Positions 34,066-38,144 of a DNA stretch of 64,000 bases are shown piece by piece. Position numbers and translations under genes: made by a program. The notes beneath the pieces were generated by a model. That model ran no database searches, had not been told where the DNA came from, and saw only the letters and a program-made list of their open reading frames with translations. The DNA comes from Caballeronia sp. SL2Y3 (GTDB lineage Bacteria; Pseudomonadota; Gammaproteobacteria; Burkholderiales; Burkholderiaceae). Position 1 is the first letter of the stretch; every line of letters starts with the position of its first letter. Location of the stretch: NCBI RefSeq assembly GCF_022879575.1, contig NZ_CP084260.1, positions 1,736,001-1,800,000 on the forward strand, read 5' to 3'.

Positions 34066-34569
34066 ATGAGCGTCTCCGCCACCGCGACGATCCCGCCGCT
34101 TCGCGCGCCCAGCCTGCGCCGGCGCCTCTCCACGATGGTCTACGAAGGCGTCATCCTGTTCGGCGTCGTATTCATCGCCGGATACCTCTTCAGCACGCTC
34201 ACGCAGCAGCGCAACGGACTCACGCATCACGACTGGCTGATGTCGTGGATCGGTCTCGTGCTGGCGGCGTATTTCGTGTGGTTCTGGACGCACGGCGGCC
34301 AGACGCTGCCGATGAAAACCTGGCGCCTGAAAGTCGTCGATGCGCGCGGCGAGCCGCTCACTGTCGGCCGAGCACTCGCGCGCTACGCGCTCGCGTGGCT
34401 GTGGTTCCTTCCGCCGCTCGCGCTGCACCCGCTCCTTTCGCTGGCGGTGCCGCAGACGCTGATCGTGCTTGCCGTCTGGATCGCGCTGTGGGCGGCAGCC
34501 GTGTGGCTCGATCCCGCCCGCCAGTTCCTGCACGACCGCCTCGCCGGCACGCGCATCGTCGCCGCCTAA
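34066..34569 (+). CDS. RDD family membrane protein
   Basis: A 167-aa protein with three hydrophobic segments (about 22-45, 55-72, 108-145). The Gln-Thr-Leu-Pro-Met-Lys motif before the second loop and the C-terminal LHDRLAGTRIV carry the Arg and Asp residues that name the RDD family. Some members act in ion exchange; most are uncharacterised. It follows the DUF3106 gene by 7 bp. A tandem Pho box begins only 20 bp after its stop, so it is the last gene of this operon. Confidence 0.85.
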   Translation: MSVSATATIPPLRAPSLRRRLSTMVYEGVILFGVVFIAGYLFSTLTQQRNGLTHHDWLMSWIGLVLAAYFVWFWTHGGQTLPMKTWRLKVVDARGEPLTVGRALARYALAWLWFLPPLALHPLLSLAVPQTLIVLAVWIALWAAAVWLDPARQFLHDRLAGTRIVAA

Positions 34570-34589
34570 GTCATCCCCTGCCTGTCCCC

Positions 34590-34629
34590 CTGTAATACGA
34601 ACTTCTCGTGACTGTCACGGCTCGGTCAC
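34590..34629 (+). promoter_or_regulatory. Tandem Pho box (PhoB binding site)
   Basis: Four 7-mers lie exactly 11 bp apart: CTGTAAT (34590), ACTTCTC (34601), CTGTCAC (34612) and CGGTCAC (34623), each separated by 4 bp. The PhoB half-site consensus is CTGTCAT with 11-bp periodicity; the third and fourth units fit best and the second fits poorly. The array ends 33 bp before the first ATG of the phosphoesterase gene, where an activator-type promoter would lie; a weak -10 (TAATGC, about 34642) is in range. Confidence 0.7.
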
Positions 34630-34662
34630 GGCCGCACGGCGTAATGCGCATACCAAAACTCG

Positions 34663-35610
34663 ATGCGCGAGCCAATGGCCCTCCACCCGACAGTCACGCC
34701 GGCATTCGATCCCTCCACCGCTTATCGTTTTCGCAGTTCCGGCTTGCGCGTCGATCCGTCGGCGCTCGTGCCCGATTCCCCTGCGTCGCCTGAAGCCGCA
34801 TCGCCCGTCGTCGACGGTGAATCGGCAGACGGAACGCATCGCTATCGCACGATCTGGCTCTCGGATATCCACTTAGGCTCCGGCGGCTGCCAGGCCGCGT
34901 ATCTGCTCGACTTCCTGCGGCATCACGAATCGGACTACCTGTATCTCGTCGGCGACATCATCGACGGATGGCAGCTTCGCAAAGGCTGGTTCTGGCCGCA
35001 GGCGCACAACGACGTGGTGCAGAAAATCCTGCGCAAGGCGCGCAAGGGCACGCAAGTCGTCTATATCCCCGGCAATCACGACGAAGCCGCGCGCCAGTTC
35101 TGCGACCTCGCGTTCGGCGACATTCACGTGCGCGGCGAAGCGTTTCACACGACGCTCGCGGGCAAGCGCCTGTGGATCGTTCACGGCGATCTCTTCGACG
35201 GCGTCATTCAGCACGCCAAATGGCTCGCCTATCTCGGCGACACCGCGTACACCGCGATCCTGCTGCTCAACCGCTGGTTCAATCGCGTGCGCACGAAGCT
35301 CGGCTTCAATTACTGGTCGCTCTCGCAGTACCTGAAGCATCAGGTCAAGAACGCGGTCAATTTCATTTCGCAGTTCGAACGTGTGATGACCGATGAAGCG
35401 CGCCGCCGCGGCTGCGACGGCGTCGTGTGCGGGCACATTCACAAGGCCGAGATTCGCGATATCGACGGCATCCTGTATTGCAACGACGGGGACTGGGTCG
35501 AGAGTCTCTCCGCGCTCGTCGAGACGTACGACGGCGAACTTAAGGTCGTCTACTGGACCGTCATGCGTTCGCCCGGACAGCCGGCCGCGAAAGCACGCGC
35601 GACGGTGTGA
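34663..35610 (+). CDS. Calcineurin-like phosphoesterase, PlcP-like (also annotated as LpxH-like)
   Basis: A 315-aa metallophosphoesterase. The metal ligands are in LSDIHLG (Asp68, His70), VGDIIDGW (Asp98), GNHDE (Asn138, His139) and CGHIHKAE near residue 253. KLGFNYWSLSQYLKHQVKNA is typical of the subgroup often labelled UDP-2,3-diacylglucosamine diphosphatase. In alpha- and gamma-proteobacteria members of this subgroup next to a GT4 transferase are PlcP, a phospholipase C that releases diacylglycerol under phosphate starvation. The Pho box upstream and the GT gene 31 bp downstream favour PlcP. An ATG at 34675 is an alternative start. About 60 N-terminal residues have no family counterpart. 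Confidence 0.82.
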   Translation: MREPMALHPTVTPAFDPSTAYRFRSSGLRVDPSALVPDSPASPEAASPVVDGESADGTHRYRTIWLSDIHLGSGGCQAAYLLDFLRHHESDYLYLVGDIIDGWQLRKGWFWPQAHNDVVQKILRKARKGTQVVYIPGNHDEAARQFCDLAFGDIHVRGEAFHTTLAGKRLWIVHGDLFDGVIQHAKWLAYLGDTAYTAILLLNRWFNRVRTKLGFNYWSLSQYLKHQVKNAVNFISQFERVMTDEARRRGCDGVVCGHIHKAEIRDIDGILYCNDGDWVESLSALVETYDGELKVVYWTVMRSPGQPAAKARATV

Positions 35611-35641
35611 ACTCATCCATCAGGCCACACGAGGAACCGCA

Positions 35642-36673
35642 ATGAAGATCATGATCGTGACCGATGCATGGGAGCCGCAAGTCAACGGCGTCGTGCGCAC
35701 ACTCAAGAACACGAGCAAGGAACTGACGGCGCTCGGGCATCGCGTGGACATGCTCACGCCGCTGGAATTCAAGACGATTCCCTGCCCGACCTATCCCGAG
35801 ATTCGCCTGTCGCTGATGCCGCGCCGTCATGTCGCCGAGCGCATCGACGCGTTCGATCCCGATGCGCTGCACATCGCGACAGAAGGCCCGCTCGGCCTCG
35901 CCGCCCGCGCGTACGCACTGCGTCACAAGCTGCCGTACACGACCGCCTATCACACGCGGTTTCCCGAATACGTGAAGGCGCGCTTCGGCATTCCGCTCGC
36001 GATGACATATCGCTTTCTGCGCTGGTTCCACGGACCGTCGCAGGCGGTCATGGCGCCGACGCCCGTGGTCAAGAAAGATCTGGAAGCCTACGGATTCACG
36101 AACGTCGTGCTGTGGACGCGCGGCGTGGATCTCGACATCTTCCATCCGATGGACTCGAAGGTGCTCAACACCGCGCGGCCGATCTTTCTGTATGTCGGGC
36201 GCGTGGCGATCGAGAAGAACGTCGAAGCGTTCCTGAAGCTCGACCTGCCCGGCTCGAAATGGGTCGCGGGCGAAGGCCCCGCGCTCGCCGAACTGAAATC
36301 TCGCTACACGAACGTCAACTATCTCGGCGTGCTGTCGCAGCCGGAACTCGCGAAGGTGTACGCCGCCGCCGATGTCTTCGTGTTTCCGAGCCGCACCGAT
36401 ACGTTCGGCCTCGTGCTGCTGGAAGCGATGGCCTGCGGCACGCCCATCGCGGCGTATCCGGTCACGGGTCCGATCGACGTGCTCGGCGAACACGGACCCG
36501 GCGCGCTCGACGACGACCTGCGCGAGGCGTGCCTTCAGGCGCTGAAGATCGACCGTGCCGACGCGCGCGCCTGGGCCGAACGCTTCTCGTGGCGCGCGGC
36601 GTCCGAGCAGTTCGCGTCGCATCTGCGGCAGTTCGAGCCGCGCGCGCCGCGCACCGACCGGGCGCCCGCATGA
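35642..36673 (+). CDS. GT4-family glycosyltransferase, Agt-like
   Basis: A 343-aa retaining glycosyltransferase of GT-B fold. The N-terminus is TDAWEPQVNGVVRTLKNT. HTRFPEYVKARFG lies in the acceptor domain. The C-terminal donor domain has FLYVGRVAIEKN, VAGEGPALAEL, FVFPSRTDTFGLVLLEAMACGTP (E-x7-E type motif) and AYPVTGP. It resembles the diacylglycerol glycosyltransferases paired with PlcP, which would make glycolipids to replace phospholipids; mannosyl/phosphatidylinositol-type transferases are also similar. GAGGAACCGCA precedes the ATG. Its stop overlaps dgkA (ATGA). Confidence 0.82.
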   Translation: MKIMIVTDAWEPQVNGVVRTLKNTSKELTALGHRVDMLTPLEFKTIPCPTYPEIRLSLMPRRHVAERIDAFDPDALHIATEGPLGLAARAYALRHKLPYTTAYHTRFPEYVKARFGIPLAMTYRFLRWFHGPSQAVMAPTPVVKKDLEAYGFTNVVLWTRGVDLDIFHPMDSKVLNTARPIFLYVGRVAIEKNVEAFLKLDLPGSKWVAGEGPALAELKSRYTNVNYLGVLSQPELAKVYAAADVFVFPSRTDTFGLVLLEAMACGTPIAAYPVTGPIDVLGEHGPGALDDDLREACLQALKIDRADARAWAERFSWRAASEQFASHLRQFEPRAPRTDRAPA

Positions 36674-37245
36674 CGCGTCGCCCGTTGGCGGAGGAACGCG
36701 CCGAAGCGAACGCCCGCGCGGCGGCGGGCCGCATCATGGACCCGTTCGACGACGAAACCGACGCCGGCGTCGATTTGCCCGATTCTCCCGATTCGCCCGC
36801 TCAGGCAACCGAACCGCTCGGCACCGACGACCTGCCCTTCAATCCGTACAAGGGCAATCGCGGCTTCACGCGCGCCTGGCACGCGATGAAGAACTCGATC
36901 GCGGGCTTTCGCATCGCGATCCGCGAGGAAAGCGCCTTCCGGCAGGAACTGACGCTCGCGGCCATTCTGTTGCCGTGCAGCCTGTTTGTGCCGGTGGCGC
37001 CGGTCGAGCGCGCCGCGCTGATCGGCTCGGTGCTGCTGGTGCTGATCGTCGAGCTGCTGAATTCGAGCGTCGAGGCAGCGATCGACCGTATCTCGCTGGA
37101 ACGCCACGAACTCTCGAAGCGCGCGAAGGACTTCGGCAGCGCCGCCGTGATGGTCGCACTCGCGGTATGCGTGCTCACGTGGGCCATGATTCTGTGGCCG
37201 CACGCGCCCGCTGCGGCTGCGTGGCTCGGGCGTCTTTTGGCTTGA
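36670..37245 (+). CDS. dgkA: Diacylglycerol kinase, prokaryotic type, with N-terminal extension
   Basis: Phosphorylates diacylglycerol to phosphatidic acid in the inner membrane. The C-terminal 125 residues match DgkA: AWHAMKNSIAGFRIAIREESAFRQEL, then three membrane segments and ELLNSSVEAAIDRIS, the catalytic ENxAIE-like motif. The first 65 residues are hydrophilic and acidic, absent from E. coli DgkA; ATG at 36736 would remove 22 of them. The first ATG overlaps the glycosyltransferase stop. In this operon it would return surplus diacylglycerol to phospholipid synthesis. Confidence 0.9.
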   Translation: MTRRPLAEERAEANARAAAGRIMDPFDDETDAGVDLPDSPDSPAQATEPLGTDDLPFNPYKGNRGFTRAWHAMKNSIAGFRIAIREESAFRQELTLAAILLPCSLFVPVAPVERAALIGSVLLVLIVELLNSSVEAAIDRISLERHELSKRAKDFGSAAVMVALAVCVLTWAMILWPHAPAAAAWLGRLLA

Positions 37246-37361: not shown

Positions 37362-38144
37362 ATGCTTGCACGAGGCCGCCGCAACCGGATGCCAAGGTCG
37401 GACGACATGGAAGCGAAACCTCCCCGCCGTACCCGCGAACGGATTCTCGAGCTGTCGCTGAAGTTGTTCAACGATATCGGCGAACCCAACGTCACCACGA
37501 CGACGATCGCCGAGGAGATGGAAATCAGTCCAGGCAATCTGTACTACCATTTCCGCAACAAAGACGACATCATCAACAGCATCTTCGCGCAGTTCGAGCA
37601 GCAGATTCAGAAGCGCCTGCGCTTTCCGGACGATCACCGGCCGACCATCGACGAGATGTGGTCCTATCTGCAGTACATGGCCGATTTTCTCTGGACGTAT
37701 CGCTTTCTCTACCGCGACCTGAACGACCTTCTCGCGCGCAACCGCACGCTGGAGACGCACTTCAAGCAGATCATCACGCACAAGGTGCGCTTTGCGCAGC
37801 AGCTGTGCGAGGCGCTCGTCGCCGATCAGGAAATGGTCGCGACGCCCGCCGAGATCGAGGTGATCGCGACCAACATCGGCGTGATCGCCACATACTGGCT
37901 GTCGTATCAGTACGTGATGAATCCGCGCAAGTACAACGATCAGGAAGCGATTCGCGCGGAACTTCATCAGGTGAGCGTGCACATCATCTCGATCATGGCG
38001 CCGTATCTGCGCGGCCGCTCGCGCCAGCTTTTCGACGATCTGGTGTCCGGTAAGATGCCCAAGCGCGGATTCGCGGACTTCCTGCCGCCGCGCGACGATG
38101 CCGCCAGCGCATCGAAGAACGAAACACCGAAGGATTCCCGATAA
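37362..38144 (+). CDS. TetR family transcriptional regulator
   Basis: A 260-aa repressor-type regulator. The N-terminal DNA-binding domain is TRERILELSLKLFNDIGEPN followed by VTTTTIAEEMEISPGNLYYH and FRNKDDI, a complete TetR helix-turn-helix. The larger C-terminal domain (about 75-225) is helical and ends in a hydrophilic tail. In-frame ATGs at 37389 and 37407 are possible starts; the family match begins near the third. It overlaps the LOG-family gene by one base (TAATG), so the two are co-translated. The ligand and targets are unknown. Confidence 0.88.
   Translation: MLARGRRNRMPRSDDMEAKPPRRTRERILELSLKLFNDIGEPNVTTTTIAEEMEISPGNLYYHFRNKDDIINSIFAQFEQQIQKRLRFPDDHRPTIDEMWSYLQYMADFLWTYRFLYRDLNDLLARNRTLETHFKQIITHKVRFAQQLCEALVADQEMVATPAEIEVIATNIGVIATYWLSYQYVMNPRKYNDQEAIRAELHQVSVHIISIMAPYLRGRSRQLFDDLVSGKMPKRGFADFLPPRDDAASASKNETPKDSR

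Follow-up and report, generated by a model that had tools for sequence, protein, structure and literature searches.

The window analysed here is a 64,000-nucleotide stretch of the genome of the soil bacterium Caballeronia sp. SL2Y3 (contig NZ_CP084260.1, positions 1,736,001 to 1,800,000 of the forward strand), and the subject of this text is a set of three consecutive genes within it, predicted to encode PlcP, Agt and DgkA and preceded by a putative Pho box. The nearest named matches, proteins and loci alike, are from Caballeronia. The initial annotation had described the order as a metallophosphoesterase gene, a GT4 transferase gene and dgkA with a 4-bp overlap, which is borne out by the coordinates; the frames of agt and dgkA share the 4 bp ATGA. 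The features are as follows.

34590..34629, + strand: predicted Pho box, four 7-mers at 11-bp steps, recognized by unit scores and conservation.
34640..34645, + strand: -10-like hexamer CGTAAT, whose first base lies 17 bp after that of the last Pho unit; nnnAAT is kept in 32 aligned relatives.
34663..35610, + strand: plcP, predicted calcineurin-like phosphoesterase of the PlcP clade; alternative start ATG at 34675.
35642..36673, + strand: agt, predicted GT4 glycosyltransferase of the Agt clade (diacylglycerol glycosyltransferase), from domains, motifs and identity to Agt1.
36670..37245, + strand: dgkA, predicted prokaryotic diacylglycerol kinase; variable N-terminal extension of ~62-74 amino acids; ATGA overlap with agt.

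As a rule the first gene goes under the wrong name, that of a lipid A enzyme. Many of its relatives among the 120 matches listed are named UDP-2,3-diacylglucosamine diphosphatase or LpxH and some metallophosphoesterase, so that the public names do hide its role, as had been suspected when the gene was first read. The protein carries a metallophosphoesterase domain (PF00149, PF12850) and is assigned to PlcP. Its identity to the PlcP of Pseudomonas aeruginosa (L126) is 52% over 242 aa, to that of Sinorhizobium meliloti (L125) 52% over 258 aa, and to Escherichia coli LpxH 26% over 121 aa. The L126 gene precedes a glycosyltransferase and a cyclase-type gene and is taken from this order to be PA3219; the L125 gene adjoins acyl-homoserine-lactone synthase and LuxR genes and is presumably SMc00171. 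The S. meliloti record that carries this synthase gene together with plcP (CP090106.1; 3.7 Mb) is titled plasmid pSymB, and its size and content suggest a mislabelled chromosome. Against the two LpxH equivalog models of NCBIfam the window protein stays below the cut-off (34.2 of 190.35 bits and 37.9 of 134 bits), and the genome's own LpxH is encoded 51 kb away (C1:1718942-1719604) with 225 bits against a cut-off of 190; the presence of such a separate lpxH was something on which the initial annotation had made its reading depend. A search of solved structures with PlcP gave an LpxH as best match at E 0.003, and no chain named PlcP stood among the matches listed.

The phylogeny that had been proposed as a check also sets the phosphoesterase apart from LpxH. 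In a tree of 78 proteins, built from 80 rows after removal of L058 and L187 for stops and with several long branches flagged by the program, PlcP (48) and LpxH (29) are split with support 100/100, and the window protein lies on the PlcP side, as does one ungrouped Parabacteroides protein. Its rows were selected from 22 of 80 named loci (the best 80 of at least 590 confirmed, a sample that leans to close kin) and 24 of 29 phylum loci. As the LpxH model was used to gather the LpxH rows and the window protein to gather the PlcP rows, it is the named anchors on each side that carry the argument: P. aeruginosa and S. meliloti fall with the PlcP rows and E. coli with the LpxH rows. The motif GNHD occurs in 48/48 rows of the PlcP side as opposed to GNRDF in 29/29 of the LpxH side, and the window protein reads GNHDE; GNHD versus GNRD as a family marker is a result of this alignment rather than a published rule seen elsewhere.

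The second gene is, by its sequence, Agt, a predicted diacylglycerol glycosyltransferase. It shares 49% identity over 339 aa with P. aeruginosa Agt1 and has the hallmarks given for the clade in part of PMC8231724 (motifs GRVAxEKN and FPSxTDTFG, catalytic His104 and an Asp): GRVAIEKN is found at 186, FPSRTDTFG at 248 and His at 104, and Asp stands at 253 where Glu is usual. The genome's next best match to the gene scores 40.5 bits, and solved structures offer distant GT4 enzymes alone, at no more than 55 bits.

The third gene appears to encode an intact-looking prokaryotic diacylglycerol kinase, DgkA, with 111 bits against PF01219 (cut-off 22.3) and matches to solved structures of the E. coli type. 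In the alignment the family segments ESAFRQE, VELLNSSVEAAIDR and RAKDFGSAAV are kept, and the conserved acidic and lysine positions, which have catalytic roles in DgkA, are intact. E. coli DgkA has nothing that corresponds to the first ~62 residues, which are variable among relatives.

Phosphate control of the operon through PhoB is predicted from the promoter sequence and its conservation. As first described, the box consists of four 7-mers at exact 11-bp steps, two good, one fair and one poor: CTGTAAT at 34590, ACTTCTC at 34601, CTGTCAC at 34612 and CGGTCAC at 34623. The 17 bp from the start of this last unit to that of CGTAAT (34640) recur in E. coli phoA (CTGTCATAAAG TTGTCACGGCC GAGACTTATAGT) and before the genome's own pstS (GAGTCACATTA CTGTCACAGAG ACTGCCTATATT), and the operon thus has the form by which boxes of the Pho regulon are recognized, with 7-mers at 11-bp steps and a -10 at Pho spacing. 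Downstream of pstS on the same strand lie three unclassified frames followed by PhoU, PhoB and PhoR; PhoB scores 350 bits (cut-off 296) and PhoR 451 bits (cut-off 334), and PstS, PhoU, PhoB and PhoR each exceed one curated equivalog cut-off in this genome.

Scoring of the region with a Pho-unit matrix, as had been suggested, placed the site above chance. With weights of our own derived from the published consensus and a two-unit maximum of 22, the best score in 34570-34674 is 20.5, equalled by 2 of 5000 dinucleotide shuffles. In the 5.5 Mb genome the strict pattern CTGTCAYNNNNCNGTCAY matches once, at this site, and the reversed control not at all; as it was designed after the site was known, this is not an independent test. 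It is the conservation of the box before plcP that convinces. A site scoring at least 19/22 is found upstream of plcP in 54/79 related loci, compared with 0.25% of shuffles, and control regions in the same loci gave 0/76 for agt, 0/51 for dgkA, 0/38 for tetR, 1/34 for RDD and 0/38 for LOG, the loci being related by kinship and not independent trials.

Alignment of 32 loci (L007-L039 minus L036), from Burkholderia sensu lato plus L038, whose record is titled a Bordetella metagenome-assembled genome, displays a box conserved in register with a sharp upstream edge. The two central units hold 1.81 and 1.55 bits and the unit preceding them 1.48, the spacers 1.28 and 0.94, the -10 1.71 and the sequence further downstream 0.95, while the upstream flank from -60 to -12 averages 0.49 bits with the conserved first unit already included. 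A functional promoter predicts a conserved block that starts at the box, and the observed conservation fits this. The block is conserved across Burkholderia sensu lato, and arrays occur in some Ralstonia, Cupriavidus, Polynucleobacter and Thiobacillus, where the examples have four units (some degenerate) and a -10-like word at the same distance. An anchored four-unit scan of 80 loci, which demanded a GGCnnAAT-like word and an array score of at least 29/44, recovered the array in 47; the word was missing in 19 and the score low in 14, and some of these 33 loci hold a good box missed by the word or the cut.

The trio is widespread in the family and not one strain's ornament. In 74 of the best 80 named loci agt comes after plcP, and 51 show the full trio, with a dgkA start possible no more than 30 nt from the agt stop in 33 of 50 measurable trios. 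In the wider sample, 41 of 60 family genomes have a plcP match (with stops in G317 and split in two in G344), plcP has an agt match as its neighbour in each of the 27 family loci inspected (L218-L244), and 34 of the 41 plcP-bearing genomes have a DgkA match no more than 5 kb from plcP. In 26 of these 34 the linked gene is the sole DgkA-family gene found, and 18 of the 26 also have no DAGK_cat (PF00781) hit over the cut-off. The linked position of dgkA persists throughout Burkholderia sensu lato, in Ralstonia and Cupriavidus, and in some Polynucleobacter; draft assemblies blur these counts, as in G347, where the contig ends beside dgkA.

Taken together, the locus is probably a PhoB-controlled operon for membrane-lipid renovation in which DgkA is added to PlcP and Agt, all steps of enzyme action and regulation being read from sequence. 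In phosphate shortage, PhoB would bind the four-unit box and bring the polymerase to the -10, which is set at 17 bp from the start of the last unit, as the promoter and its conservation suggest. PlcP would take phosphorylated head groups off membrane phospholipids to yield diacylglycerol, as its 52% identity to the PlcPs of species where the enzyme has been studied suggests, and Agt would place glucose or glucuronic acid on part of this diacylglycerol, forming phosphorus-free glycolipids. DgkA, whose translation is probably coupled to that of Agt on a shared message, would convert diacylglycerol unused by Agt back to phosphatidic acid, thereby holding diacylglycerol low and leaving a return route to phospholipids. 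A branch point at which diacylglycerol is either glycosylated or phosphorylated is a reasonable reading of these genes, and in relatives where the linked DgkA is the sole one it probably also handles the cell's other sources of diacylglycerol.

Several observations weigh against this picture. Rephosphorylation costs adenosine triphosphate and returns phosphate to lipid, and so opposes the sparing of phosphate; DgkA may be inactive in the starved state, and may chiefly cap diacylglycerol and speed recovery when phosphate returns. The window's genome encodes a second DgkA and two DAGK_cat proteins over the cut-off, so the operon's DgkA is not the sole kinase here. Where 900 bp or more of sequence follows agt (67 loci), the trio is complete in 49 and plcP-agt lacks dgkA in 18; among the 41 plcP genomes, 7 have their plcP without a DgkA match inside 5 kb (six carry DgkA elsewhere and one has none); DgkA is thus not required for the pathway. 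A natural cluster of this kind is L239 (G341), in which a TetR gene directly follows plcP-agt and dgkA is on a different contig. In the promoter, the second unit (ACTTCTC) is poor in the window's lineage, and the textbook consensus CTGTCATNNNNCTGTCAT with up to 3 mismatches is matched 159 times in the genome against 83 in the control; with matches so frequent genome-wide, one of such quality would not be convincing if taken alone. Finally, where passages of PMC5082522 name the proteins absent from a phoBR mutant of Pseudomonas putida BIRD-1, PlcP and OlsAB are given and DagK is not.

The alternative that survives best leaves PlcP and Agt as proposed and treats DgkA as a housekeeping passenger, recycling diacylglycerol from osmoregulated glucans and lipid A decoration, whose place in the operon is irrelevant to starvation. 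It is unlikely, but it has substance: in the 26 genomes with no other DgkA found, the linked gene must do the housekeeping of DgkA, 18 of these also having no DAGK_cat hit over the cut-off, and plcP-agt stands without a neighbouring dgkA in P. aeruginosa as well as in the 18 loci just mentioned. Such a passenger would not be expected to overlap agt by 4 bp behind a conserved Pho promoter, nor to keep its linkage through Burkholderia sensu lato, Ralstonia, Cupriavidus and some Polynucleobacter, and the passages of PMC5082522 list DagK with PlcP among the lipid-remodelling proteins enriched on phosphate depletion, even if DagK is missing from the list of those lost in the mutant.

It is much less probable that the box is a relic or is bound by another winged-helix response regulator, leaving the operon indifferent to phosphate. 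Regulators of this class generally bind direct repeats, and the degenerate second unit and the many consensus matches in the genome would suit such an origin; the units, their step and the distance to the -10 are nevertheless the same as in the genome's own pstS and in E. coli phoA, and the box is conserved in the 32 aligned loci. That the phosphoesterase serves lipid A synthesis as an LpxH isoenzyme is barely credible, as the public names of its relatives and its weak LpxH-model matches (38 and 34 bits against cut-offs of 134 and 190) are contradicted by the 100/100 tree split, the motif, those same sub-threshold scores and the separate genomic LpxH at 225 bits.

In keeping with the proposed renovation operon, there is a hint that DgkA genes follow the makers of diacylglycerol. 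Eight genomes carry two DgkA with one copy at plcP, and in six of them the second copy is near cellulose genes: near bcsB in the window's genome, G314, G319 and G337, and near bcsA in G292 and G202, where the same 20 kb also contain a full-length BcsG match and one small same-strand gene lies between dgkA and bcsA. G314, G319 and G337 have a bcsE match and no bcsG match in the 20 kb read, a BcsG match being present in the stretch read for three of the cellulose-linked clusters; no bcs match was found in the 20 kb around the second DgkA of G324 and G301. BcsG is thought, according to part of PMC11379886, to release diacylglycerol from phosphatidylethanolamine, and second copies beside cellulose and BcsG clusters fit with DgkA acting alongside systems that make diacylglycerol. 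There are few such cases, some of them closely related, with at most two counted as separate, and since the quick DgkA tree has long branches (the two Polynucleobacter-like second copies lie on an implausibly long one, and the E. coli protein is placed within the bcs group), no origin is drawn for the second copies.

The second DgkA of the window's genome (G000:C3:209527-209826; L001, L246, L251) adjoins bcsB, in a cluster with a GH8 gene (bcsZ), bcsC, bcsE, bcsQ, a BcsA-like synthase and then bcsG; a Pho box was looked for before this dgkA and not found, with a best score of 13.5/22. In two genomes of one genus of the family, Polynucleobacter-like by the kinship of their plcP (L257 6386-10256 and L258 6753-10626), a divergent DgkA lies two genes before bcsA on the same strand, its 5' end overlapped by a frame with a GGEEF motif spotted by eye and with a BcsG match nearby.

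A broader proposal is tentative. The DgkA of Burkholderiaceae could be a dedicated recycling partner placed with each diacylglycerol-making machine, PlcP-Agt under PhoB and a phosphoethanolamine-cellulose synthase of the BcsG type under cellulose control, with PlcP, Agt and DgkA forming a regulated three-way valve in starvation. If this is true, the valve would govern how much glycolipid, diacylglycerol and phosphatidic acid there is relative to one another, and phospholipid would not simply be exchanged one way for glycolipid.

The gene before the operon belongs to the RDD family (34066-34569), and the one after dgkA (37407-38144) encodes a regulator of the TetR type, a repressor (PF13972). 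A TetR match is present in 39 of 80 related loci, on the same strand as plcP in 38 of those 39.

PlcP occurs in 41/60 sampled family genomes and a Pho-type promoter in 54/79 related loci, yet an LpxH label is in common use. For the genera of Burkholderia sensu lato, lipid change in response to phosphate has already been proposed through another lipid. In the passages of PMC7814305 drawn on, which do not mention PlcP, Pho boxes are predicted before olsB in 21/43 genomes of Burkholderia sensu lato, including two from Caballeronia, and ornithine lipids, looked for in a complex medium rich in phosphate, are seen in Burkholderia sensu stricto only. Among the papers listed by literature searches, no title or opening of an abstract mentions a plcP-agt-dgkA operon in Burkholderiaceae; a Burkholderia cenocepacia phosphorus-stress proteome (doi 10.1111/1462-2920.15451) may report PlcP. 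Renovation by PlcP-Agt in P. aeruginosa has been tied, in part of PMC8528852, to protection against a last-resort antibiotic. The third gene raises the question of whether starvation remodelling is one-way or keeps a return path, for which the 26 genomes with the linked gene as sole DgkA found are the cleanest setting.

Among known systems, PA3219-PA3218 of P. aeruginosa shares the order plcP-agt, a Pho box in front according to passages of PMC8528852, and protein identities of 52% and 49%; it differs in that no dgkA is annotated in the surrounding 10.7 kb, whereas in Caballeronia dgkA is the third gene and overlaps agt. The S. meliloti PlcP (L125) has no glycosyltransferase or dgkA annotated alongside in a gene table that is itself incomplete. 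The type 2 clusters of marine heterotrophs likewise share plcP then agt and a Pho box, and the cluster types, as given in the passages of PMC4796936 consulted, name no diacylglycerol kinase, the term occurring 0 times in the main text. In P. putida BIRD-1, PlcP and DagK both rise on phosphate depletion, and the discussion in PMC5082522 calls PlcP, DagK, OlsA and OlsB PHO-dependent; its passages do not place plcP and dagK in one operon. The Caballeronia locus is thus the known Pho-type PlcP-Agt pathway plus DgkA, and what it adds is modest: a family-wide variant with a diacylglycerol kinase built in, and a testable link of DgkA genes to diacylglycerol-making systems.

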